A stretch of 64,000 nucleotides of DNA from Pontibacter oryzae (GTDB taxonomy: Bacteria > Bacteroidota > Bacteroidia > Cytophagales > Hymenobacteraceae). This document shows positions 27,662-41,220 of this stretch, piece by piece. Position 1 is the stretch's first letter. Every line of letters begins with the position of its first letter. The position numbers and the translations under genes are program-made. The DNA lies in assembly GCF_003576375.1 (NCBI RefSeq), contig NZ_QWGE01000002.1, positions 744,001-808,000 on the forward strand, given 5' to 3'. A model generated the notes under the pieces. That model was not told the origin of the DNA. It saw only the letters and a list, made by a program, of their open reading frames with translations, and ran no database searches.

Positions 27662-28681
27662 ATGGCATTAGACCTTAACAACAAGGCTATACTTATAACG
27701 GGCGGAACCGGCTCGTTTGGAAAGAAATTCGTGGAGATGGTATACGCCCGCTTCCCAAATGTTAAAAGAGTGGTGATTTACTCGCGCGATGAGCTGAAGC
27801 AATTCGAGATGTCGCAGGTGTTTCCGCACAGCAAGTATAACTCTATCCGTTATTTTATTGGCGATGTAAGGGATGGCGAACGGTTTAAGCGCGCCTGTGA
27901 GGGGATCGACATAATTGTGCATGCAGCTGCCTTAAAGCAAGTGCCTGCTGCCGAGTATAACCCCATGGAGTGCATCAAAACCAACGTGCTGGGTGCTGAG
28001 AATGTTATAAATGCCGCACTTGATTGTGGCGTAAAAGACGTTGTAGCGCTCTCTACGGACAAGGCAGCAGCGCCCATAAACCTTTACGGCGCCACCAAAC
28101 TGTGCTCCGATAAGCTGTTTGTGGCCGCTAACAACATGCGTGGCAAACGCGATATCCGTTTCTCAGTTGTTCGTTATGGTAACGTGATAGGCTCAAGAGG
28201 TTCTGTAGTACCCTTCTTCATGAAAAAGCGTGCGGATGGCGTGTTGCCTATTACACACCCAGATATGACACGCTTCAACATCTCCTTGGAAGAAGGCGTA
28301 GAGCTCGTTTTCCATGCGCTCGAACACCACTGGGGCGGTGAGATATTTGTGCCGAAGATTCCATCCTACCGCATTACTGATGTGGCTGAGGCTATTGGCC
28401 CGAACTGTGAGCAGGAGGTTGTGGGCATACGCCCCGGTGAGAAGCTGCACGAAGAGATGATCACTGAAACCGACTCGCTGAACACCGTTGAGCTGAACAA
28501 ATATTATGTGATACTTCCCTCTACCCCAGTATGGGAAACGGAGGATTTCCTAAAAGTGCATAATGGCCAAATGGTAGAAATGGGCTTTAAATATAACTCT
28601 GGTACCAACACCGAATGGCTTACCGTGGACGAGCTTCGCCAACAGATTCGCCAGCACGTTGATGAACACTTTAGTGTTTAA
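27662..28681 (+). CDS. pseB: UDP-N-acetylglucosamine 4,6-dehydratase (inverting), PseB
   Basis: First enzyme of pseudaminic acid synthesis: converts UDP-GlcNAc to the 4-keto-6-deoxy-L-arabino sugar with C5 inversion. The 339-residue extended SDR has the NADP motif ITGGTGSFGKK near residue 11 and the catalytic region STDKAAAPINLYGATK, with Tyr-x3-Lys; FSVVRYGNVIGSRGSVVPFF is typical for PseB. The C-terminus ISLEEGVELVF and IRPGEKLHEEMI is also characteristic. It heads the gene order pseB-pseC-pseF-pseGH-pseI. An AT-rich inverted repeat separates it from pseC. Its base composition and AAGTAT content resemble the rest of the chromosome, unlike pseC and pseI. Confidence 0.95.
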   Translation: MALDLNNKAILITGGTGSFGKKFVEMVYARFPNVKRVVIYSRDELKQFEMSQVFPHSKYNSIRYFIGDVRDGERFKRACEGIDIIVHAAALKQVPAAEYNPMECIKTNVLGAENVINAALDCGVKDVVALSTDKAAAPINLYGATKLCSDKLFVAANNMRGKRDIRFSVVRYGNVIGSRGSVVPFFMKKRADGVLPITHPDMTRFNISLEEGVELVFHALEHHWGGEIFVPKIPSYRITDVAEAIGPNCEQEVVGIRPGEKLHEEMITETDSLNTVELNKYYVILPSTPVWETEDFLKVHNGQMVEMGFKYNSGTNTEWLTVDELRQQIRQHVDEHFSV

Positions 28682-28773: not shown

Positions 28774-29973
28774 ATGAGCTCAGAATTCAGAACAAATATT
28801 AAGCCTATACCTTACGGCCGCCAGCATATCACCGAAGACGATATTCAGGCGGTGATAGAAACGCTGCAATCGGATTACCTGACGCAGGGGCCGAAGGTTG
28901 TTGAGTTTGAGCGCGCTTTTGCCGCCTACGTGGGCGCTGAGTATGCCGTTGCCGTGTCTAACGGTACGGCGGCGCTGCACCTGGCCGCCCTGGCGCTGGG
29001 CGTAAACGAGCAGAGCCGCGTGATCACGACACCCATTACCTTTGCCGCCTCTGCAAACTGCGTGCGCTACTGTGGCGGTACCGTGGCGTTCGCCGATATC
29101 GACCCCGAAACCGCGCTGCTGGACGTGGACAAGGTAAAGCAAATGCTGGAGAGCAAGCCGAAAGGCTACTATGCCGGCATCATCCCCGTGGACTTTGCGG
29201 GCAACCCCGTCAACCTGGAGGCGTTCCGAAGGCTGGCCGATGAGCACGGCCTTTGGGTCATAGAGGATGCGGCACACTCGCCGGGGGGCTATTTTGTCGA
29301 TAGCAAAGGAGAGAAACAGCTTTGCGGAAACGGTAATTACGCCAACCTGGCCATTTTCTCCTTTCATCCGGTCAAGCACATCGCAACCGGGGAGGGCGGC
29401 ATGATCACCACAAACGACGGGAAACTATACAATGAACTGCTGAAACTCCGTACCCACGGCATCACCCGCGACCCGAACCTGATGGAGGAAAACCACGGCG
29501 GCTGGTACATGGAGATGCAGGAGCTGGGTTACAACTACCGCATCCCGGATATGCTCTGTGCCCTGGGCATCTCGCAGCTTCAGCGCGCCGATGCCGGACT
29601 GGCCCGACGCAAAGAAATAGCAAATGTATACGACAACGCGTTTGAAGGCTCCCCGGGCATTGAGGTGCTAGGCACTAATCCCGACGCTTTTGACGCGGCC
29701 GGTGAAACCGGGCACGCGTATCACCTATACGTTATCCGGGTGGAAGACCGCAAGGGCTTGTACGACTTCCTGCGTGAGCATGGCATCTTCGCGCAGGTGC
29801 ATTACATCCCGGCCCACACCATGCCCTATTACCGTGGCCTGGGCTACGGCAAAGGCGACTTCCCGGAAGCTGAGCACTACTACAGCCAGTGCCTGAGCCT
29901 GCCTATGTACCCGACGCTGACGCAGCAGGAGCAGGAGTTTGTCATTGAGAAGGTGAAGGAGTTTGTAGGGTAG
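28774..29973 (+). CDS. pseC: UDP-4-amino-4,6-dideoxy-N-acetyl-beta-L-altrosamine transaminase, PseC
   Basis: PLP aminotransferase of the DegT/DnrJ/EryC1/StrS family; adds the 4-amino group in the pseudaminic acid pathway using glutamate. The 399 residues have PLP-binding Lys201 in SFHPVKHIATGEGG, a PseC hallmark, VSNGTAALHLAAL near residue 61 and VIEDAAHSPGG near 162. The gene is clearly GC-richer than its surroundings (36 of 60 bases G or C at 29161-29220) and contains no AAGTAT/ATACTT, suggesting a different history from pseB. Its stop overlaps the pseF GTG start by one base. Confidence 0.94.
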   Translation: MSSEFRTNIKPIPYGRQHITEDDIQAVIETLQSDYLTQGPKVVEFERAFAAYVGAEYAVAVSNGTAALHLAALALGVNEQSRVITTPITFAASANCVRYCGGTVAFADIDPETALLDVDKVKQMLESKPKGYYAGIIPVDFAGNPVNLEAFRRLADEHGLWVIEDAAHSPGGYFVDSKGEKQLCGNGNYANLAIFSFHPVKHIATGEGGMITTNDGKLYNELLKLRTHGITRDPNLMEENHGGWYMEMQELGYNYRIPDMLCALGISQLQRADAGLARRKEIANVYDNAFEGSPGIEVLGTNPDAFDAAGETGHAYHLYVIRVEDRKGLYDFLREHGIFAQVHYIPAHTMPYYRGLGYGKGDFPEAEHYYSQCLSLPMYPTLTQQEQEFVIEKVKEFVG

Positions 29974-30665
29974 TGAAGAACCTAGCCATCATACCGGCCC
30001 GCGGGGGCAGCAAGCGTATACCCAGAAAAAACATCAAGGATTTTCTCGGAAAGCCCATTATTGCCTATCCCATACAGGCGGCTTTGGACTCCGGACTGTT
30101 CGAGGAAGTAATGGTTTCCACGGATGATGAGGAAATAGCGGAGGTAGCCACCAGGTTTGGGGCAAAGGTACCTTTCCTGCGCAGCGCTTCCGCCTCCGAT
30201 GACTTTGCATCCACGGCGGCTGTGCTCGAAGAGGTGTTATCATCCTATAAGGAAACTGGGAAGGAGTTTAGCCACGGTTGCTGCATCTACCCTACCGCAC
30301 CTTTCACAACCGCCGCGCGCCTGCACGAGGGTTATCTAAAGCTTACCGAGAGTGACTTTGACACGGTCTTTCCGGTGCTGCGTTTCGGCTACCCGATTTT
30401 GCGTAGCCTAAACATAGGGGACGGCAAGGTTGCCATGAACTGGCCTGAGCACCTGAACAGCCGCTCGCAGGACTTGCCTGCAGCCTTCCACGATGCAGGG
30501 CAGTTCTACTGGTTTCAAACAGAGAGGTTTTTACAGCAAGGCAAGCTTTTCACCGCCAACTCGGGCGCCATGGAAGTCTCAGAGCTTGAGGCGCAGGATA
30601 TCGATACGGAAACTGACTGGAAACTGGCCGAACTGAAGTATAGATTGATGCATGGAATTGAGTAA
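29973..30665 (+). CDS. pseF: Pseudaminic acid cytidylyltransferase, PseF
   Basis: Activates pseudaminic acid with CTP to CMP-pseudaminic acid, the donor for glycosyltransferases. The 230-residue protein starts KNLAIIPARGGSKRIPRKN, the nucleotide-binding motif of CMP-sugar synthetases, and continues with KDFLGKPIIAYPI and VMVSTDDEEIAEVA. YPTAPFTTAARL and the end DIDTETDWKLAELKY match PseF/NeuA enzymes. GTG at 29973 is the start; there is no ATG near, and one base overlaps the pseC stop, suggesting translational coupling. The 3' end overlaps pseGH by 14 bases. Confidence 0.93.
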   Translation: MKNLAIIPARGGSKRIPRKNIKDFLGKPIIAYPIQAALDSGLFEEVMVSTDDEEIAEVATRFGAKVPFLRSASASDDFASTAAVLEEVLSSYKETGKEFSHGCCIYPTAPFTTAARLHEGYLKLTESDFDTVFPVLRFGYPILRSLNIGDGKVAMNWPEHLNSRSQDLPAAFHDAGQFYWFQTERFLQQGKLFTANSGAMEVSELEAQDIDTETDWKLAELKYRLMHGIE

Positions 30666-32148
30666 GCAGAAGCAAAGAATCATCTTCCGCGCTGACGGCA
30701 ACGGCCACATTGGCCTGGGGCACGTGGTTCGCTCGCTGGCCCTGGCAGAGATGCTGCGCCATGATTTCGGGTGCGTGTTCGCCATTCAGGCCCCAAGCGC
30801 TGAGCTGCAGCAACAGATCAGGGAAACCTGTGAGGGGCTAATCATACTTCCTGCCTGCGAGCCCGACGAAGAGAGGTTCGAGTACGAGTTGGATGCATAT
30901 ATTGCCGAAGACGTGATAGTGGTGCTGGACGGTTATCATTTCGCCACCCGTTATCAGCAACATATCAAGCGCAAAGGCTGTCCTTTATTTTATATAGATG
31001 ACCTGCAAGCCTTTGAAATTCCTGCCGATGTGGTTTTGAATCAGGCGGGCGGCGTAGATGGTTCGAAGTATAAAACAGCTGAATACACCAAGCTGCTGCT
31101 AGGCCCAAAGTATGCTTTGCTCAGACCTCCTTTTTTAAAGACTGCCAGTAAAAAGAGAGTTTTCCCCGGAGGTGCTATCCGTCTTTTCCTGAACCTTGGT
31201 GGCGCCGACCCAAAAAACCATACGCTAGAAATTGCTCAAGAACTCGCAAAAGTAGAGTTTATCTCTAAAGTAGAGATCGTGGTCGGTAGCGCCTACAAGC
31301 ATTTGACAGAACTAAAGGCTTGGGTGACAACTAATCCAACCTATGGACTTCACCAGAACCTGGGTGCCCGTGAGCTGGGCCGTTTGATGGAGGGATGCGC
31401 CATGGCCATCACTTCCGCCAGCGGCGTGGCTTATGAATACGCCAGCGTGGGGGGCCTGCTTTATGCCATGCAGACAGCCGACAACCAGTCAGGGCTCTAT
31501 GATTTCCTGACAAACAACGGCCTGGCGTTTACCTATGAAGAACTATCGCAGTTAAAGTCTAATGATATTGAACAAGCCTTTGATGAAAAGGTAAACATAC
31601 AACGGCAGCACTTTGAGGGCGGCCCTGGAGAGCGCCTGAGGGAAGTCTTTAAAATTCTCGGGCTGATGGCAGGTATGAAACTGCGTGAGGTGACACCGGA
31701 GGACATGATGCTGCTATTCAACTGGGCCAATGACCCTGAGGTACGAAAGCGCTCCTTTAACCCGAACCCCATCTTGCTGGAGGGCCACAGCCGCTGGCTG
31801 CAGGCCAGGCTGGCGGATGAGCGGACGAAACTCTATATCGCGGAAGTAGCCGGAGAGCCCGCCGCACACATTCGCTTCGAGCTGAAAAGCAGCACGGCTA
31901 CTATAAGCTACCTTATCGGTCCGGGTTTCAGGGGCAGGGGCCTGGGGCATGTGGTGCTGCAAAAGGGCACTGACAGGCTTGTGCGGCAAAACCCTGACCT
32001 GAGGCTGATCGAGGGACTCGTGCAGCGGGACAATATCGCCTCAGTGCGCGCTTTCGAGAAAGCCGGATTCCAATACGGACAGCCCGACCCGAGCCACCCG
32101 GATGCACACCGGTTTGTGCTGCAACCAAAAACAATGAAGCAAGAATAA
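30652..32148 (+). CDS. PseG-PseH fusion: UDP-sugar hydrolase plus N-acetyltransferase
   Basis: Two pathway enzymes on one 498-residue chain. Residues 1 to about 340 are PseG, a GT-B-like hydrolase that releases 2,4-diacetamido-2,4,6-trideoxy-L-altrose from UDP; signs are FRADGNGHIGLGHVVRSLAL and NLGGADPKNHT. Residues 342-498 are PseH, a GNAT acetyltransferase that acetylates the 4-amino group; signs are LREVTPEDMMLLFNWAND and GRGLGHVVLQKG, the acetyl-CoA loop. An in-frame ATG (31675) marks the junction, as if an old stop had been lost. The reaction order is PseH before PseG, so channelling is possible. The PseH part is GC-richer than the PseG part. Confidence 0.9.
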   Translation: MELSKQKQRIIFRADGNGHIGLGHVVRSLALAEMLRHDFGCVFAIQAPSAELQQQIRETCEGLIILPACEPDEERFEYELDAYIAEDVIVVLDGYHFATRYQQHIKRKGCPLFYIDDLQAFEIPADVVLNQAGGVDGSKYKTAEYTKLLLGPKYALLRPPFLKTASKKRVFPGGAIRLFLNLGGADPKNHTLEIAQELAKVEFISKVEIVVGSAYKHLTELKAWVTTNPTYGLHQNLGARELGRLMEGCAMAITSASGVAYEYASVGGLLYAMQTADNQSGLYDFLTNNGLAFTYEELSQLKSNDIEQAFDEKVNIQRQHFEGGPGERLREVFKILGLMAGMKLREVTPEDMMLLFNWANDPEVRKRSFNPNPILLEGHSRWLQARLADERTKLYIAEVAGEPAAHIRFELKSSTATISYLIGPGFRGRGLGHVVLQKGTDRLVRQNPDLRLIEGLVQRDNIASVRAFEKAGFQYGQPDPSHPDAHRFVLQPKTMKQE

Positions 32149-32149
32149 C

Positions 32150-33193
32150 ATGATCAACGACATAAACATAGCAGGCCGCCTGGTTGGCCCATCGCATAAG
32201 CCATTTATCATTGCCGAGATGTCCGGCAACCATAATCAATCCCTGGAGCGCGCACTTGAGATCGTAGACGCCGCGGCGGACGCCGGGGCGGATGCTATCA
32301 AGCTGCAGACCTACACCGCAGACACCATGACGCTGCCCGGTGCCTTCACCATCGAGGACGAGAACTCGCTCTGGAGGGGCCGTGAACTGTACGACCTCTA
32401 CAAAGAGGCGTATACCCCGTGGGAGTGGCACCGCCCGATCTTCGACAGGGCCAGGGAGCGCGGCATGCTCGCCTTCTCCTCCCCCTTCGACGAGACGGCC
32501 GTGGACTTCCTGGAAGAGCTCGGGGCGCCAGTTTACAAGATCGCATCCTTTGAGAACACCGACCACCCGCTGCTGCGCAAGGTGGCCGCCACGGGCAAGC
32601 CGGTTATCATGAGCACGGGAGCGGCCACGGTGCAGGAGGTGGCAGAAGCTGTAGAAGTACTGCTGGGCGCGGGCTGCCAGGAACTCATCCTGCTTAAGTG
32701 CACCTCCACTTACCCATCTACTCCTGAGAATACCAATCTTGTGACTATTCCGCACATGCGCGAACTGTATGGTGTGCAAGTAGGATTATCCGACCATACG
32801 ATGGGCGTGGGCGCGGCCGTGGCTGCCGTGGCGCTTGGGGCCACCATGGTGGAGAAGCACTTTACGCTGCGAAGGGCCGATGGCGGCGTGGACTCGGCCT
32901 TCTCGCTGGAGCCCGAGGAGCTACGGTCCCTGGTGGTGGAAACGGAAAGGGCCAGGCTGGCGCTGGGCCGGGTGCAGTACGGCGTGCAGCGGGCCGAGGA
33001 GAAAAGCCGCCTGTTCAAGCGCTCCGTGTACGCGGCCAGGGACATAAAGGCGGGCGAGCCGCTGACCGGGGAGAACATCCGTGTGATACGTCCCGGTTTA
33101 GGCCTGGCACCGAAGCACTACGACACGCTGCTGGGCAAAACTGCCAAGCAGGATATTAAGGCTGGCACACCCCTCAAATGGGAGATGGTATAA
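32150..33193 (+). CDS. pseI: Pseudaminic acid synthase, PseI
   Basis: Condenses 2,4-diacetamido-2,4,6-trideoxy-L-altrose with PEP to give pseudaminic acid. The 347 residues comprise a TIM barrel (FIIAEMSGNHNQSLERAL, then KLQTYTADTMTL) and a C-terminal antifreeze-like SAF domain (about 290-347, SVYAARDIKAGEPLTGENI). KCTSTYPSTPENTNL and DHTMG are typical of PseI rather than NeuB. The gene is strongly GC-rich (35 of 60 bases at 32341-32400) and lacks AAGTAT/ATACTT, in contrast to the AT-rich gene 3 bases after it. Its start is one base after the pseGH stop. Confidence 0.95.
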   Translation: MINDINIAGRLVGPSHKPFIIAEMSGNHNQSLERALEIVDAAADAGADAIKLQTYTADTMTLPGAFTIEDENSLWRGRELYDLYKEAYTPWEWHRPIFDRARERGMLAFSSPFDETAVDFLEELGAPVYKIASFENTDHPLLRKVAATGKPVIMSTGAATVQEVAEAVEVLLGAGCQELILLKCTSTYPSTPENTNLVTIPHMRELYGVQVGLSDHTMGVGAAVAAVALGATMVEKHFTLRRADGGVDSAFSLEPEELRSLVVETERARLALGRVQYGVQRAEEKSRLFKRSVYAARDIKAGEPLTGENIRVIRPGLGLAPKHYDTLLGKTAKQDIKAGTPLKWEMV

Positions 33194-33196
33194 GGT

Positions 33197-34474
33197 ATGC
33201 CTAGTTGGTACCAGACTTACAGCAATATACTTTTTACGCACTTCTCGGAAGGGTTTCTTCAGCTTCCGGAAAACGCGAAGGCTGCTGTTTCCCCTAAGAA
33301 TGCACTTACGCGGCTCCTTAAAATGGGTGGATACACTTTTGTGCGCTTATTTGGCAACTTACTAAGTGCCGTTGAAAAACCGCAGGCACTTGAGGGCAAA
33401 GTATGGCTTTACGTAGTTAGTCAAAATAATTATGACAGCCTGAAATTTATTGCGGAAGGCTTACCTGATAGTGTATTCGTAGCAGGCCAAAGCAAAGCTT
33501 TAGGGAAGTATAGATATGCGGTACAGCGAATATCACTGCGACAAAAAATCATCTTCTATTATAAGCTTCTCCCTTTAAGCCTGCAATTTTTAAAGCATAA
33601 CCGCAAAAGCACTTTACGGTTTTTTGACCTCCTGTATGATGCCATAGGTTTTTATGAGGTTTATCTTGAAAAGATAAGAAAGTATAAACCGAAAGCTATC
33701 ATCTTTGCAAACGACCATAATGCGGATGCCAGGGCCATGCTTCTGGCTGCTAAAGCTAACGGTATAAAAACGGTATACATCCAACATGCCAGTGTTAGCG
33801 CGCTTTTCCCCCCCCTATCTTTTGATTTAAACTTGCTGGAAGGCCAAGATGCATTGGATAAGTATTGTAGTTGCGGACCAATATCCGGTGAAGTGAAGCT
33901 CATTGGCTTGCCAAAAGCCGATGCATTTGTTTTCAAACGCAATCAGAGCAACACGATCCGTACCATCGGGATAGGTTGTAACTTACTTGATGATCTCACA
34001 GAAATTAAAAACCTGGTTAAATCACTAAGTTTAGCATTGCCAGATATCAAATTTATACTTCGGCCACACCCGCGCGATAAGCGCAATTTTCAAGCAATGG
34101 TAGCTATGTCGCCAAACATAACTTTATCGGATAGCCACCATGAACTAACATTCGATTATTTGCAGCAACTTGATGTTCAGATAAGTGGAAACTCAGGTAT
34201 ACATCTGGAGGCAGTGTTACTCAATGTATGGAGCATCTTCTACGATTTTAATCCAAGCCAAAGACTGGATGATTACTATGGCTTTATAAAGCATGGTTTG
34301 GTAGACACTTCAGATAGCACAGTGCATTTGCTCTCTCTACTAAAACTTAACCTGACAAGCAAGCCTAATGTGGTTGGAAGAGCTGCGTATTACAATTCAA
34401 CTATAGATACGCCTTACGACGGAAATAGCAAAACCTTGGCACTTAACTGCATAAATTCTTTTCTTAGAAGCTAA
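33197..34474 (+). CDS. Uncharacterised GT-B-like protein; candidate nonulosonate transferase
   Basis: No family is recognised with certainty. The 425-residue cytoplasmic protein starts 4 bases after the pseI stop and ends the pse operon. It has alternating strand-helix pattern as in GT-B glycosyltransferases. IIFANDHNADARAMLLAAKANGIKTVYIQHASVS (about 170-200) resembles the acceptor half, and FILRPHPRDKRN (about 286-297) followed by ISGNSGIHLEAVLL (about 328-341) recalls the HP and Ser-rich motifs of bacterial sialyltransferase and Kdo-transferase-like families that use CMP-sugars. A role in transferring pseudaminic acid from CMP-Pse is therefore plausible but inferred. It is AT-rich (21 of 60 G or C at 34141-34200), in sharp contrast to pseI. 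Confidence 0.6.
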   Translation: MPSWYQTYSNILFTHFSEGFLQLPENAKAAVSPKNALTRLLKMGGYTFVRLFGNLLSAVEKPQALEGKVWLYVVSQNNYDSLKFIAEGLPDSVFVAGQSKALGKYRYAVQRISLRQKIIFYYKLLPLSLQFLKHNRKSTLRFFDLLYDAIGFYEVYLEKIRKYKPKAIIFANDHNADARAMLLAAKANGIKTVYIQHASVSALFPPLSFDLNLLEGQDALDKYCSCGPISGEVKLIGLPKADAFVFKRNQSNTIRTIGIGCNLLDDLTEIKNLVKSLSLALPDIKFILRPHPRDKRNFQAMVAMSPNITLSDSHHELTFDYLQQLDVQISGNSGIHLEAVLLNVWSIFYDFNPSQRLDDYYGFIKHGLVDTSDSTVHLLSLLKLNLTSKPNVVGRAAYYNSTIDTPYDGNSKTLALNCINSFLRS

Positions 34475-34531
34475 TTATTTTCTATATATCTATATTTATA
34501 TTTATTAACTTACCAGTATATCGATCTCTTA

Positions 34532-36157
34532 ATGCTGAAAACAATCTTATGCGCTACATTCTTTGTCGCGCTGATACTCTGTCTCCCATTCACTCAAGCT
34601 GCTTTAGCCCAGACTAATAATAGTGCTTTAACACTAAATGGCGCGGATTCATATGTGGATTTAGGCGTAGATAACAGAGGAATAACGAACCAGTTAACCT
34701 TAGAAGCCTGGATCAAAACAGATACTAAAAGTCATGATCACATTATTTCTAAGTATGACCGCGACAGGCAGAGAGGCTTCCAGCTGCTAATCCAAAACGG
34801 TAAAGTATGTCTTGCAGGGCGTGATGGTTCTGGGATGTATCGCACGTCTGGATATTCAAATACTGTTGTGGCAGACAATCAGTGGCACCATATTGCAGGT
34901 GTAATAGAAAGAGGTGTTTGGAAAATTTATGTAGACGGAGAATTACATAACCAGCAAAATACAGGCTTCGCAGCTGCTGCGTTAAACAGCGATTTTAATT
35001 TATTAATAGGTAATTACTACTACCCACAGCTTGGCAATCACTTCTACGAAGGCTCAGTTGACGAACTCAGAATTTGGAATATAGCCCTTAGCGAAATGGA
35101 AATAAGGCAGCACATGTGCAGCGCAGTTAATCCGAATACGCCAGGCTTAGTTGGTTACTATACTTTCGACAACTCCCCAGGAGGACTTATCCTTGACAGC
35201 AGTTCTTCAGATATTAAAGGCCACCTGATCAATATCACTCCCCCTAATGCCTTTGTCCCCTCAGGAGCTCCGATAGGCGACATCAGCGTGTACAGGTATC
35301 CTCAAAAGTGGGATCAATCACTTGAGCTGTTAGATGGCGAAATTAACTTCTCGGTGACGAAGGTATCCCCGCAAATTCGAGGTTTTCATTTATATAAAGT
35401 GTTCTCACCCCCAGCATCTACTAGCGGTATTGATAACCATCAGGATGTAAAAGAATACTATGGCGTATTTAAAGTTGGGCCTGCCAGCGCAAAGTATAAA
35501 GTGTACCATAAAAAGCCTCTTGCCGCTTGTGGTACTACGCTATACTTCCGCCAGAACAATGCAGACAACACATGGGAGCAGGTAGCTGATACAACAGGTG
35601 CGCCAATGATGTTCTATACCACTGCTGAAAACTACGGCGAATATGCTGTAACAAATACTAGTAACGCTGAGACTATAGCCGAACAACCAGTTGAGCTCAA
35701 AGCTTGCTCTAATGACCAAATAACGTTAGATGCTACTACAGAAAAGGCAACAGCCTACACTTGGAACAACGGCCAGACAACGCCTAAACTGACCGTTTCG
35801 GCGGCTGGCACCTATACAGCCACAGTCATAGTAAATAATTGCCCTTTGGTTCGTACATTCACCGTAATTAAAGAAGATTGCCCCATCATCCCGGACATCA
35901 CTGTGCCGAATATTATCATCCCTAATATTATAACCCCGAATGGGGATGGTAAAAACGACAGCTTTGTAGTACAAGGATTGGAAAAAAATACAATGGAGAT
36001 AAAAATTTTCAACCGCTGGGGAAAATCTATGTACCACACTGCTCGTTATGACAACAGCTGGTCGGCCGCAGGCTTGCCAGACGGAGTTTATTACTATCAG
36101 TTGACCGACCCAAACACCCAAAAAGTTTATAAGGGCTGGTTTGAAGTTATTAGGTAA
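34532..36157 (+). CDS. Secreted LamG-domain protein with type B T9SS C-terminal sorting domain
   Basis: Predicted cell-surface or secreted adhesin-like protein of 541 residues. Residues 1-27 are a Sec signal peptide (ILCATFFVALILCLPF ending in ALAQ). Residues about 34-195 are a LamG/concanavalin-like domain (LTLEAWIKTD, WHHIAGVIERGVWKIYVDGEL, GSVDELRIWNIALSEMEI). The middle holds an Ig-like segment, WNNGQTTPKLTVSAAGTYTATV. The last ~85 residues, from IPNIITPNGDGKNDSF through IKIFNRWGKSMY to GWFEVIR, are the gliding motility-associated type B C-terminal domain that directs export by the type IX system. It is the only clear T9SS cargo in the window, located among glycan genes. Confidence 0.9.
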   Translation: MLKTILCATFFVALILCLPFTQAALAQTNNSALTLNGADSYVDLGVDNRGITNQLTLEAWIKTDTKSHDHIISKYDRDRQRGFQLLIQNGKVCLAGRDGSGMYRTSGYSNTVVADNQWHHIAGVIERGVWKIYVDGELHNQQNTGFAAAALNSDFNLLIGNYYYPQLGNHFYEGSVDELRIWNIALSEMEIRQHMCSAVNPNTPGLVGYYTFDNSPGGLILDSSSSDIKGHLINITPPNAFVPSGAPIGDISVYRYPQKWDQSLELLDGEINFSVTKVSPQIRGFHLYKVFSPPASTSGIDNHQDVKEYYGVFKVGPASAKYKVYHKKPLAACGTTLYFRQNNADNTWEQVADTTGAPMMFYTTAENYGEYAVTNTSNAETIAEQPVELKACSNDQITLDATTEKATAYTWNNGQTTPKLTVSAAGTYTATVIVNNCPLVRTFTVIKEDCPIIPDITVPNIIIPNIITPNGDGKNDSFVVQGLEKNTMEIKIFNRWGKSMYHTARYDNSWSAAGLPDGVYYYQLTDPNTQKVYKGWFEVIR

Positions 36158-36162
36158 CCAAT

Positions 36163-37503
36163 TTGTACATACAGCAATACATTCTTCACCATTTTTACCA
36201 AGTATACCCCGCTGCCCAGCAACTTGACCTAAAGTATGGTACTGATAATGGTGCCAAGGTAAGTATTAAAAAGTATATTGGTAGTTTCTTCGAGAAAAAG
36301 CGCCCGCGGCCACAGCAGGTTGTTTGGAAAGAATGGAAAGGCGAAAACCTTCCTTTTTTCTTTGACACCGATACTGACCAGGAAATTGTTACTTATGGCC
36401 CTGATGGCACGGCAAGTATAAACTATGATATCATTGCCTCTGCGTTTTACTTGCTAAGTGGCTGGCAGGAGTTTTACGGTCCGGAGCGGGATAAATTTAA
36501 GCGCTATACTTACAAGGCAAGCGTGCAAGCCAAGTATGGTTTTATCACAAAGCCTGTGGTAAACTATTATTTCGATATCCTTCGCGACGTACTGGAGAAT
36601 GTATATCACAAAGACCTAAGCTACGACCGTTGGGGTAACAATTCATTCGCCACCTGCCTAACCTGCGACGTGGACCGCTTGCAAAGTGGCTGGAAAGTAG
36701 CTGGCAAACAGCTCATGCAGCAGGGCAGATTTTTTGAGGTGACGAAGCTATGGCTGCAAAAAGGTATTGGCCGCGATGCCTGGAACAACCTGCCTGACGT
36801 AATGCAAACTGCTGAGAAATATGGCGCAAAGGCCACATTTTTTTTTCTGCCCAGCAACCAGCGTTTCAACGGCCACCCAAACGCAGACTATGACCTTACG
36901 AAGCTGAAATACCAGGAGCTTGCCCAACGCGTTGCTGACCAAGGCCATGAAGTTGCTTTACACGGCAGTTTCGGCACAACAAACGACTTGGTACAGCTAA
37001 AATCAGATAGAGCCAAGCTGCCTTTACAGGCCCAGGGTAATCGATTCCATTACCTCTGTTACCAACCTGAAACCACACCGCTGGTACTGGAGCAGAGCAA
37101 CCTGAAGTACGACAGCACTCTTGGCTTTGCCGAACACATCGGCTTCAGAAACTCATACTGCCACCCTTTCTACCCTTTCAACTTCAAAAACCGACGTGCC
37201 CATACTTTTATAGAGCTGCCACTCTTGCTCATGGATACCACCCTATATAACCCAAACTATATGAACCTGAAGCCCGTGGAGGCGCTACAGCATCTGCAAT
37301 CGGTGGTGGCCGAAGTACAGAAGTTCAACGGGCTATTTACCCTGCTTTGGCATAACGAAAACTTTTCAAAGTATACCGAAGCGGTGGCAGAGAGCGGCGG
37401 TATGACTTGGCTGGGTCTGGTAGGAGAATTGCTCCAGCAGCTCAAGGATGCCGGAACACGGTTTTATACCTGTGCTAAGGCTGCAGAAAAGGCGCGGGCA
37501 TAA
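36163..37503 (+). CDS. DUF7033/polysaccharide deacetylase-like protein
   Basis: A 446-residue cytoplasmic protein. The first part (to about 160) resembles the DUF7033 domain found before deacetylase domains in Bacteroidota glycan clusters; the second half resembles the NodB fold, with FATCLTCDVDRLQSGW holding the Asp-rich start and GHEVALHGSFGT, TLGFAEHIGFRNSYCHPF and LFTLLWHNENFS giving conserved His/Asn positions. NodB metal ligands appear altered, so an active deacetylase is not assured. The start is TTG at 36163, 5 bases after the T9SS-cargo stop; no ATG fits. The gene has at least seven AAGTAT/ATACTT motifs. Function in surface polysaccharide handling is inferred from context. Confidence 0.7.
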   Translation: MYIQQYILHHFYQVYPAAQQLDLKYGTDNGAKVSIKKYIGSFFEKKRPRPQQVVWKEWKGENLPFFFDTDTDQEIVTYGPDGTASINYDIIASAFYLLSGWQEFYGPERDKFKRYTYKASVQAKYGFITKPVVNYYFDILRDVLENVYHKDLSYDRWGNNSFATCLTCDVDRLQSGWKVAGKQLMQQGRFFEVTKLWLQKGIGRDAWNNLPDVMQTAEKYGAKATFFFLPSNQRFNGHPNADYDLTKLKYQELAQRVADQGHEVALHGSFGTTNDLVQLKSDRAKLPLQAQGNRFHYLCYQPETTPLVLEQSNLKYDSTLGFAEHIGFRNSYCHPFYPFNFKNRRAHTFIELPLLLMDTTLYNPNYMNLKPVEALQHLQSVVAEVQKFNGLFTLLWHNENFSKYTEAVAESGGMTWLGLVGELLQQLKDAGTRFYTCAKAAEKARA

Positions 37504-37546: not shown

Positions 37547-37565
37547 CGGTTCACTCTTGCACCCA

Positions 37566-39053
37566 ATGAGCAGAACGTTACAGCGCGAAGGAATCTGGAA
37601 CACAACCATCTCGTACGCCGGTATTTTGATTGGCTACGTAAATACCATTCTGCTTTTCCCAAACTTCCTGGATGAGGCAGAGGTAGGCCTCACGCGACTG
37701 CTTTTGTCGATTTCCGTGATGTACGCGCAGTTTTCGGCACTTGGCTTTGCGAACATGAGCGTGCGCTACTTCCCATACTTCCGAGATGAGAACCGGCAGC
37801 ACAACGGCTTTTTATTTTTGCTGCTCTCAGTCCCAGTCATGGGTTTTATACTTACTACGGCAATTTTCCTGCTGTTTAAGCCTGCCGTGGTGGATTATTA
37901 TATTACCAATTCGCCGCTCATTATTGATTACTATTACTACCTGATCCCGCTGGCCTTGTTTGCGCTCCTGTTTAACATGTTTACAGCCTACCTGCGATCT
38001 CTGTATAAAACCATTGTATCGTCCTTCGTGCAGGATTTTCTCTTGCGCATACTCACTACTATACTAATTAGTATCTATGCGTTTAAGGTGATGGATTTTC
38101 AGACGTTTGTGCTGCTCTACATCATCATAAATTCTGCCGGAGCATTGGTGCTTGCCATCTATATTATTCGCCTAAAGCAACTATTCTTAATGCCCTCGCT
38201 AGCCGTGCTGCGCGTTATACCTATCCGGGAGATATTATACTATGGGTTTTTCACTTTTCTTGGCAACGTTTCTACAACCATCATCACCACCGTAGATCAG
38301 GTTATGATATCATCGTATAGCCTCTCTGATAATGGGATCTACACCACGGCTTTCTTCATGACGAGCGCCATACTTGTGCCTGGCCGTTCCATACTTAAAA
38401 TTGCGCACCCACAGGTTGCCGAATTCTGGAAAGAGAAAAACATGCAGGGCATGGGCAACCTGTACCAGCATGTAACCATGATCAACCTGATTGTAGGGCT
38501 TCTGCTCTTCGTAGGCATATGGGCGAACATCGATAACCTCTACGACTTTATGCCTGAGAGTTATCGGGCCGGCAAGTATGTGGTGCTTTATCTGGCATTG
38601 GCACGCCTCGTGGATTTGGCAACCAGCCTGAATGGTGCCATACTAGCCACTTCTGAAAAGTATAAATGGGACCTTGCTTTTAACATCGTCCTGGCCGGCC
38701 TCACTATCTGGACGAACTGGTACTTTATACCGCGCTACGGGATTGAAGGCGCCGCGCTGGCCTCCATGATCTCTTTAGTAGTTATGAACCTAGCAAGGTT
38801 GTTCTTTGTGCAGATTATCTACAAGATTCAGCCGTTTACTTGGCAGGCTGCGGGTGTTTTGGCTATTGCCGCGATTACCTTGGGTGCTTCTTACCTCTTG
38901 CCCTATCTTGGCGATGTGTGGCTGGATTTGGTGGTACGCTCGCTCATGATCGTATCGATCTACGCCATGCTGGCCCTGAACCTTAACATTTACCCCGAAA
39001 TGAATGCCTGGCTAAGGAAGGTGATCTATGGTGTTACTGGCTGGAAGCTGTAA
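37566..39053 (+). CDS. Wzx-type polysaccharide flippase (MATE/MVF superfamily)
   Basis: Polytopic inner-membrane protein of about 495 residues with 12-14 hydrophobic helices, predicted to flip undecaprenyl-linked oligosaccharides. The start ATG 37566 gives MSRTLQREGIWNTTISYAGILIGYVNTILLFPNFL, typical of the RfbX/MatE-like polysaccharide exporters with a charged N-terminus and a first helix. Further helices include VPVMGFILTTAIFLLF and LASMISLVVMNLARLFFV. It is consistent with a Wzx/Wzy-type pathway, although no Wzy polymerase is recognised here. Its last 42 bases overlap the 3' end of the opposite-strand oxidoreductase gene. Confidence 0.87.
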   Translation: MSRTLQREGIWNTTISYAGILIGYVNTILLFPNFLDEAEVGLTRLLLSISVMYAQFSALGFANMSVRYFPYFRDENRQHNGFLFLLLSVPVMGFILTTAIFLLFKPAVVDYYITNSPLIIDYYYYLIPLALFALLFNMFTAYLRSLYKTIVSSFVQDFLLRILTTILISIYAFKVMDFQTFVLLYIIINSAGALVLAIYIIRLKQLFLMPSLAVLRVIPIREILYYGFFTFLGNVSTTIITTVDQVMISSYSLSDNGIYTTAFFMTSAILVPGRSILKIAHPQVAEFWKEKNMQGMGNLYQHVTMINLIVGLLLFVGIWANIDNLYDFMPESYRAGKYVVLYLALARLVDLATSLNGAILATSEKYKWDLAFNIVLAGLTIWTNWYFIPRYGIEGAALASMISLVVMNLARLFFVQIIYKIQPFTWQAAGVLAIAAITLGASYLLPYLGDVWLDLVVRSLMIVSIYAMLALNLNIYPEMNAWLRKVIYGVTGWKL

Positions 39054-40091
39054 GTGTGATTGCTGCTGCACTGTTTCTTTTAAGGCATAAATACGTTCGA
39101 TCAATTCCACCACTTTGAAACCATCGGAAGCATTGGTACTGACTGCACCGCCATGCTTCAGCGTGTGTACAACGTTCTCGATAACATACTTATGGTTGGC
39201 AGCGCTCCCGCTATATGGCCCGTAATTATTGGCAGGCTCACTGGCAGGTAAGTCAGGCATTTGATAGTCCTGAATTTGGCACTGAGACACCTGGTTCATA
39301 TACTGCCCATCAATCTTGATGCTTCCTCTCTCACTAATAATAGTCATGCTACTTTCCAGATTCTGGCCAGGCACTGAGGTAGAGTAGTTAAAAGTGCATA
39401 AACCGCCCCTCTCCAACTCGAACTGCAGAAAGCCACTATCCTCAAAATCAGTCAGCCCTTGGTGGTTGAAATTTCTGAACTGGCCCCGTATATCCCTAAA
39501 ATCACCGAAAAGCCAATAAAGCATATCAATAAAGTGGCTAAATTGAGTAAAAAGCGTACCGCCATCCTGTTGGGCATTGCCACGCCAGCTCAAGGGTGTG
39601 TAATAACGTGCATCGCGGTTCCAGAAACAGTTTACCTGCACATGGTATACTTCCCCCAAGAGCTCCTGTTCTAGTACACTTCGCAGCCATACAGCCGGCG
39701 GGCTGTACCTGTTCTGCATCACGCAGAAAATATGCTTGCCTGCCGCTTTGGCTGTCGCAATCATGTGCTGGCTGTGAGTTGCTGCCAGAGCCATGGGCTT
39801 TTCGCATACAACGTGCAGCCCTAACGCCAAGCCTCTTAAAGTATGGGTGTAATGCAGGTAATTAGGCGTGCAGACGCAAAGCACTTCGGCTGGTATTTCA
39901 GAAAGTATAAATTCGTCCAGGGAGGCAAACTTTGGCACGTCTGTAAACTCGCTACTTAAGCTGAAACCTTCCCGGTTATCAATAAGCGCTACCAACTGGC
40001 AAGCCGGGTTAGCCATGATAAGCACTGCATGGCGTTTGCCAATATGGCCTACCCCGATTACAACAAATCGAACAAGCCCCAGATCAGCCAT
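39012..40091 (-). CDS. Gfo/Idh/MocA-family NAD(P)-dependent sugar oxidoreductase
   Basis: Cytoplasmic oxidoreductase of 359 residues, probably oxidising a nucleotide sugar. The Rossmann domain starts RFVVIGVGHIGKRH, and VVCEKPMALAATHSQ contains the EKP motif whose Lys is catalytic. The C-terminal sheet has GGTLFTQFSHFIDMLYWLFGD, with the conserved His-x3-Asp-like segment. Directly upstream, with an 8-base overlap, is a DegT aminotransferase, so the pair resembles WbpB/WbpE (or WlbA/WlbC), which make 3-amino-3-deoxy uronic acid sugars; the pathway is inferred. The final 42 bases overlap the flippase gene tail to tail. Confidence 0.82.
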   Translation of the reverse strand: MADLGLVRFVVIGVGHIGKRHAVLIMANPACQLVALIDNREGFSLSSEFTDVPKFASLDEFILSEIPAEVLCVCTPNYLHYTHTLRGLALGLHVVCEKPMALAATHSQHMIATAKAAGKHIFCVMQNRYSPPAVWLRSVLEQELLGEVYHVQVNCFWNRDARYYTPLSWRGNAQQDGGTLFTQFSHFIDMLYWLFGDFRDIRGQFRNFNHQGLTDFEDSGFLQFELERGGLCTFNYSTSVPGQNLESSMTIISERGSIKIDGQYMNQVSQCQIQDYQMPDLPASEPANNYGPYSGSAANHKYVIENVVHTLKHGGAVSTNASDGFKVVELIERIYALKETVQQQSHLQLPASNTIDHLP

Positions 40092-41220
40092 TCTGCTTTA
40101 CATAAGAAGTCACATGGTGGCAAATATACTCCAGTTGATCTTCTTTTAGCTCGGAGTGCATAGGCAACGATAGTACGCTGGCGCAGAGCTGCTCTGCCAC
40201 TGGAAAATCACCGGCATTATAGCCCAAGTATGTATAAGCTTCCTGCAAATGCAGCGGTTTTGGGTAATAAATCATACTTGGGATGTGATGCAAGCGCAAA
40301 TGCTCTTTAAGCCCATCCCGCAGCTCAGAAGCAACTTTTAAAGTATATTGATGGTACACATGGCTGCTGTAACCAGACATGCTCGGTGTAACAACATGAT
40401 TTAGCATACCAAGAGCATTTTTATAATATGCAGCTACACGGTCGCGGGCAGCGTTGTAAGCATCGATATACTTGATTTTTACGTCTAGCATAGCAGCCTG
40501 CAAGGTATCCAAGCGGGAGTTGATGCCTACATTCCGGAATTCATACTTTTCGCTCTGGCCGTGGTTTGCTATTTGCTGCATGCGGGCAGCCAGTTCTGAG
40601 TTATTCGTGAATACAGCGCCGCCATCGCCCATTCCGCCCAAAGGCTTGGATGGGAAAAATGAAGTTGTGCCGATGTGGCCGATCGTTCCGGCCTTTTGTG
40701 CAACAGCTCCAGCCGGCTGATAATCCGCCCCAAGAGACTGCGCATTATCCTCTATCACCCAAAGTTTATACTTCTCGGCTAGCTGCATCAGCGGCGTCAT
40801 ATCACTGCACTGCCCAAACAAATGCACAGGTATGATAGCAGCAGTTTTGTCTGTGATAACCTTTTCTGCAGCTTCAGCGGTCAGGTGAAACGTAGCGGCA
40901 TCCACATCAGCAAAAATTGGTTTTAAGCCCAATAAAGCCACTACTTCAGCAGCAGAAACATAATTGAAGGCCGGAACGATCACCTCAGCCCCTGCCGGAA
41001 GTTGCAAGGCCATCAACGCGATTTGCAGCGCATCTGTGCCGTTGGCGCAGGGTATGGCATGCTTCACAGCGAGGTAACGCTCCAGGCTCCGTGCAAAGTC
41101 TTGCACCTGCGGCCCGTTTATAAAAGCCATACTCTCCATAACATTACTGAAAGCCTTGTCCAGTTCGGGTTTGAGCTGTGCGTACTGGGCTTTCAGGTCC
41201 ACCATTTTTATATCTTCCAT
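40084..41220 (-). CDS. DegT/DnrJ/EryC1/StrS sugar aminotransferase
   Basis: PLP-dependent aminotransferase of 378 residues that installs an amino group on a keto sugar nucleotide. Lys192 in TTSFFPSKPLGGMGDGG forms the Schiff base, the WbpE/WlbC-like variant of the motif. IEDNAQSLGA (156-165) and CANGTDALQIALM (58-70) bind PLP. The last part, LHHIPSMIYYPKPLHLQEAY, matches the active-site loop. It starts the minus-strand pair with the Gfo/Idh enzyme. It is clearly different from PseC, so a second amino sugar beside pseudaminic acid is probably produced. An acetyltransferase expected for a WbpD step is not in the window. Confidence 0.87.
   Translation of the reverse strand: MEDIKMVDLKAQYAQLKPELDKAFSNVMESMAFINGPQVQDFARSLERYLAVKHAIPCANGTDALQIALMALQLPAGAEVIVPAFNYVSAAEVVALLGLKPIFADVDAATFHLTAEAAEKVITDKTAAIIPVHLFGQCSDMTPLMQLAEKYKLWVIEDNAQSLGADYQPAGAVAQKAGTIGHIGTTSFFPSKPLGGMGDGGAVFTNNSELAARMQQIANHGQSEKYEFRNVGINSRLDTLQAAMLDVKIKYIDAYNAARDRVAAYYKNALGMLNHVVTPSMSGYSSHVYHQYTLKVASELRDGLKEHLRLHHIPSMIYYPKPLHLQEAYTYLGYNAGDFPVAEQLCASVLSLPMHSELKEDQLEYICHHVTSYVKQNG

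Follow-up and report, generated by a model that had tools for sequence, protein, structure and literature searches.

The pse operon and the gene that follows pseI

The window, as we call the whole stretch of 64,000 nucleotides analyzed here, comes from Pontibacter oryzae (contig NZ_QWGE01000002.1), and named relatives place it in Pontibacter (Hymenobacteraceae). Coordinates are window positions. On the plus strand lies a complete pathway to pseudaminic acid (Pse), in the order pseB-C-F-GH-I: the dehydratase gene pseB (27662–28681, TIGR03589), the aminotransferase gene pseC (28774–29973, TIGR03588), pseF for CMP-pseudaminic acid synthetase (29973–30665, TIGR03584), a gene for PseG with a C-terminal PseH-like acetyltransferase domain (30652–32148, NCBIfam), and pseI for pseudaminic acid synthase (32150–33193, TIGR03586, 498.8 bits). 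PseB, PseC, PseF, PseG, and PseI all pass their NCBIfam equivalog cut-offs, which bears out the original prediction of a pse pathway upstream of the candidate; the PseH half of the fusion is a GNAT domain that falls below its cut-off (33.8 bits versus 93.1). Proteins of the length of this PseG–PseH-like fusion are seen again in related loci. PseI is the single nonulosonic acid (NulO) synthase of the P. oryzae genome.

The next gene (33197–34474, plus strand) is the candidate CMP-Pse transferase. Its open reading frame, correctly predicted to follow pseI directly, starts with ATG and encodes 425 residues; three bases intervene between the pseI stop at 33193 and its start. A likely ribosome-binding site, GGGAGA (33180–33185, plus strand), lies within the end of pseI. 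Third-position GC content (GC3) drops sharply, from 77% in pseI to 40–42% in the candidate and the following LamG gene (33197–36157); among orthologues the difference is smaller, with the same direction on average.

Downstream, a Wzx-type flippase gene is conserved (37557–39053, plus strand, PF01943); Wzx probably exports the lipid-linked glycan once it is finished. In the window, two further genes separate it from the candidate. The first (34532–36157) encodes a LamG-domain protein carrying a T9SS type B sorting domain; about 12 of the 30 related loci have this insertion, and the protein is possibly a surface partner or acceptor. The second (36163–37503) encodes a DUF7033/polysaccharide deacetylase protein that resembles VimE (136.6 bits against a cut-off of 440) and occurs at about 9 of these 30 loci. 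Nearby, on the minus strand, there is a pair of genes for a Gfo/Idh oxidoreductase and a DegT aminotransferase (39012–41220). The oxidoreductase weakly matches UDP-GlcNAc 3-dehydrogenase, and the pair suggests that a pathway to a 3-amino sugar or a uronic acid adjoins the Pse cluster, possibly as the source of the acceptor sugar. Together, the LamG/T9SS type B, DUF7033 deacetylase, Gfo/Idh, and DegT neighbors point to a cell-surface glycan. The P. oryzae genome contains no flagellin and no KpsS-type Capsule_synth protein, and Maf (PF01973) is missing from it throughout. Without flagellin and Maf, the Pse made here is therefore not flagellar. The prediction had counted the missing Maf transferases as evidence by comparison with flagellar Pse; their absence holds genome-wide, but the comparison does not, because a genome that also lacks flagellin makes the absence of Maf uninformative.

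Conservation of the gene and its position

The candidate protein occurs in all 37 genus-level genomes, that of P. oryzae included, with 50–67% identity in the others, and PseI exceeds its cut-off in 36 of the 37. In every one of the 30 named loci (29 Pontibacter, one Botryobacter) the candidate comes immediately after pseI, and Wzx is encoded further on, frequently with no gene in between. This position is conserved far beyond chance. The gap to pseI is 3 bp in 29 of the 30 loci and 2 bp in the other; from this constancy, and from the placement of GGGAGA within the end of pseI, we infer that translation of the candidate gene is coupled to that of pseI. Homologues of 44–48% identity also occur in pse clusters of a sister genus within the family; of three loci there, two have the homologue directly after pseI and the third has it after two inserted modification genes.

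The operons themselves vary around this fixed arrangement. At the pseF position, between pseC and pseGH, Pontibacter loci (L021–L050) carry one of three alternative modules, namely PseF, a cytidylyltransferase on its own, or a Kdo-type cytidylyltransferase together with an aldo-keto reductase and an SDR protein (swapped modules are found, for example, at L026:4967-7475 and L029:6597-7334), which suggests that otherwise orthologous operons yield differently modified Pse-like sugars. In some genomes, genes for hexapeptide-type and PIG-L-like deacetylase proteins are inserted around pseI and ahead of the candidate (L161:6931-9621; L107:7644-9282), a pattern that would fit remodeling of the N-acyl groups on Pse.

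Predicted fold, conserved residues, and family

The AlphaFold model (24 orthologues) has a pLDDT of 87.8 and a pTM of 0.83 and consists of two Rossmann-like domains. Thus, the GT-B-like pattern noticed at the outset is now a confidently predicted GT-B fold, the outcome on which structure prediction had been proposed as a check. The best solved match in Foldseek is the CMP-Kdo transferase WaaA (E 5.9e-10); other top matches are NeuC and other UDP-GlcNAc 2-epimerases and MurG, and a polysialyltransferase with CDP is matched at E 1.6e-6. Because the TM-scores are about 0.5, the fold search establishes the GT-B class but is silent on the donor. This applies also to WaaA (GT30), whose donor chemistry is analogous but which shares 15% identity with the candidate at a TM-score of about 0.5 and is not detected by the sequence profile.

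Two conserved motifs fall in the C-terminal domain. RPHPRDK (residues 289–295; 34061–34081, plus strand) contains the HP motif and is a probable nucleotide-phosphate binding element; SGNSG (residues 330–334; 34184–34198, plus strand), followed by the invariant E338-A339, probably binds phosphate or ribose. On the N-terminal side are Y153-E154 (33653–33658, plus strand), the block FANDHNADAR (residues 170–179; 33704–33733, plus strand) in the N-terminal Rossmann domain, probably on the acceptor or catalytic side, and Q196-H197 (33782–33787, plus strand), which is invariant in all relatives aligned. These three N-terminal elements are invariant in the 24 orthologues, as are R289, H291, P292, R293, D294, S333, and E338-A339; E154, Q196, H197, H291, P292, E338, and A339 are kept down to a relative of 22% identity. 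The catalytic base of KrkA is a Glu in a "YE" context, and the same is likely in KpsS1 (PMC12887879); by analogy with the invariant Y153-E154, E154 is the candidate catalytic base.

The prediction had read RPHPRDK and SGNSG as signs of a CMP-sugar donor. Both are present and almost invariant, but as donor evidence they are weak: HP and Ser motifs also occur in UDP-GlcNAc 2-epimerases, TagF/TarL, KpsC, and sialyltransferases, and because they are generic to GT-B enzymes and epimerases, RPHPR and SGNSG..E do not identify the donor. The candidate shares the HP and Ser motifs (H291-P292, S333) with the GT38/GT52/GT80 sialyltransferases but lacks their third motif, D/E-D/E-G, and there is no DxD anywhere in the protein.

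No Pfam model is passed by the candidate. Among curated models, the closest is NCBIfam NF046086, "BFO_1060 family glycosyltransferase" (E 1.2e-10, 41.1 bits, far below the cut-off of 200), whose name suggests a Tannerella forsythia locus tag. The match covers the C-terminal nucleotide-binding region, is found in 24 of 24 orthologues, and leaves the N-terminal domain unmatched; no known family covers the first ~150 residues. In hhalign comparisons, the candidate aligned with NF046086 members above the cut-off at a probability of 88% (E 2.9e-6) and with lower-scoring relatives from NulO clusters at 99.1% (E 6e-19, 257 columns, residues 153–422). The profile of the latter detects a UDP-GlcNAc 2-epimerase, TarL, and, more weakly, KpsC (E 0.001) among PDB sequences, and direct searches of the PDB sequences with the candidate (phmmer, profile) returned nothing useful. 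In the profile searches suggested for sialyltransferase and Kdo-transferase families, PF07922 (sialyltransferase) is matched by three of 24 orthologues (best E 0.038) and not by the candidate itself, and PF05159 (Capsule_synth) is matched neither by the candidate at E ≤ 1 nor by any of the 24 orthologues. On the latter ground we rejected the Capsule_synth family (KpsS1/GT118, KpsC/GT107). KpsS1, the retaining GT118 Pse transferase of Acinetobacter baumannii, and the Kdo transferases KpsC, WbbB, and KrkA nevertheless form a related GT-B fold group, to which the candidate is linked only through the E 0.001 match of its distant relatives' profile to KpsC. The Maf family was likewise rejected, as the candidate has no PF01973 match; the flagellin Pse transferases of that family use the same donor as proposed here. 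We would class the candidate as a new subfamily, scoring below the cut-off, that is related to GT-B glycosyltransferases of the BFO_1060/GtfS kind.

To place this superfamily in its genomic context, we took NF046086 hits from Bacteroidota genomes with up to about 10 kb of surroundings on each side. A PseI/NeuB homologue was near the hit in 26 of 37 loci, compared to 0 of 40 control loci (Fisher p 4e-12), and in two further loci pseB/pseC lay at or near the end of the contig or stretch. The controls were ordinary GT-B (PF00534) loci from the same genomes, picked by PF00534 match rank and not as glycan clusters; several genomes per family were included, so that the cases are not fully independent, although the contrast is total. 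We conclude that the BFO_1060-like superfamily is significantly linked to NulO synthases. One member above the cut-off overlaps pseI by 4 bp (L095). The model of this GtfS-like protein is only moderate (pLDDT 68.7), with epimerases and TarL/TagF as best matches, and it therefore carries no donor information.

Proposed donor and its alternatives

A precedent for the arrangement exists in T. forsythia ATCC 43037, where gtfS, the next listed gene after pseI, encodes a GT-B protein of 445 aa (PMC6120980). Deletion of gtfS removes the terminal Pse5Am7Gra, and Pse transferase activity was assigned by knock-out and mass spectrometry (PMC6120980; PMC6388019). By published description (position, fold type, and length, as opposed to sequence alignment), GtfS (Tanf_01245) is like the candidate, being encoded directly after pseI in a Bacteroidota pse-wzx cluster, GT-B, and 445 compared to 425 aa long; it differs in having a DXD at the start of its C-terminal domain (PMC6388019). 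Given this precedent and the NF046086 match, the candidate would be a new subfamily of a known kind of transferase. The prediction of a pseudaminic acid transferase is partly supported, on firmer grounds than it first had: the genus-wide locking of the gene to pseI, the GT-B model, and the significant link of its superfamily to NulO synthases make it the best reading, although the arguments from motifs and from Maf add little. From sequence, gene context, and modeling, we put the probability that the candidate is a GT-B Pse transferase using CMP-Pse at about 0.7.

We hold it at that value because of four observations, two of them genomic. In one Pontibacter genome (G024), pseC-pseI are lost, and pseB and an intact candidate copy lie side by side (L138:9322-11977); a Neu/Leg-type NulO synthase and pathway are on another contig (L162). 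A second genome (G044) has a homologue of 34–36% identity without NulO genes nearby (L051) and a weak NeuB-like gene elsewhere. The third is the TagB-like SpsB of Bacillus subtilis, which is encoded beside a CMP-Leg pathway and is dispensable for Leg transfer (PMC7439481). The fourth is the tree of the candidate, which requires six changes between A and non-A donor-activation types, the same as the trees of PseB, PseC, PseGH, and PseI (six each), compared to four for Wzx. The candidate thus follows donor-activation type no better than the flanking genes do, and the tree gives no support for the donor.

Of the other explanations, the one with the most in its favor, though we judge it unlikely, is that the enzyme works on the same glycan with another nucleotide sugar, adding a residue next to Pse (e.g., a uronic acid or a HexNAc acceptor), while Pse is added by an enzyme encoded outside the window. 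Membership in the operon does not by itself fix the donor, aminosugar-type genes (Gfo/Idh and DegT) are nearby, G024 retains the gene after losing pseC-pseI, and SpsB offers a precedent. However, the conserved loci have no other glycosyltransferase gene between pseI and Wzx, it is NulO synthases specifically that the wider superfamily accompanies, and the candidate stays with pseI whereas the presence of neighboring sugar genes varies.

It is less probable still that the donor is a different CMP-nonulosonic acid, or that the enzyme is relaxed among CMP-NulOs (Pse, Leg, Neu, and decorated forms). One protein does accompany three kinds of donor-activation genes, PseI is swapped in one genome (G020, L161), and the only NulO pathway in G024 is of the Neu/Leg type; against this, the only NulO synthase encoded by P. 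oryzae is PseI, and the Pse and Leg transferases of T. forsythia did not cross-complement (PMC6388019).

Two readings arise from the superfamily, which also includes epimerases and CDP-polyol polymerases, and we consider both very improbable. A TagB/TarB/TarL-like transferase of CDP-activated polyol phosphate is hinted at by matches to TarB in one and to Glyphos_transf in four of 24 orthologues and by the TarL match of the related glycosyltransferases' profile, but the window protein has no such match at E ≤ 1 and the curated matches of the operon include no CDP-polyol genes. A non-hydrolysing sugar-nucleotide 2-epimerase, or another Pse-modifying enzyme of that fold, would agree with the epimerases (NeuC included) among the best fold matches and with a weak PF02350 (UDP-GlcNAc 2-epimerase) match (E 0.013), but the latter scores 14.8 bits, under the gathering score of 30.6, the epimerase motif HRxEN is missing, and no additional epimerase is needed to complete the Pse pathway.

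For a CMP-Pse transferase, the following mechanism can be proposed. The enzyme would act in the cytoplasm, moving Pse, or the Pse derivative made by the operon, from CMP-Pse to a growing glycan that is probably lipid-linked. Its C-terminal domain may bind CMP through R289, H291, P292, and R293 of RPHPR together with S333 and E338 of SGNSG..E, and in the N-terminal domain the acceptor or catalytic side would consist of E154, H197, and the NDHN block. The Pse-bearing lipid-linked glycan would then be flipped by Wzx toward the surface.

Pse biosynthesis genes are easily annotated and the transferases are not; the few characterized are Maf, KpsS1/GT118, and T. forsythia GtfS. Taken with the statistical link between BFO_1060-like proteins and NulO synthases, the genus-wide position after pseI offers a route to NulO transferases in Bacteroidota, and the Pontibacter gene would also provide a harmless environmental model for Pse transfer outside flagella. 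There are about even odds that the candidate is the first of a family of CMP-nonulosonic acid transferases that is specific to Hymenobacteraceae and separate from Maf, GT118, and the sialyltransferase families, serves non-flagellar surface glycans, and tolerates several naturally swapped donor variants, within a broader GT-B superfamily made up largely of NulO transferases.
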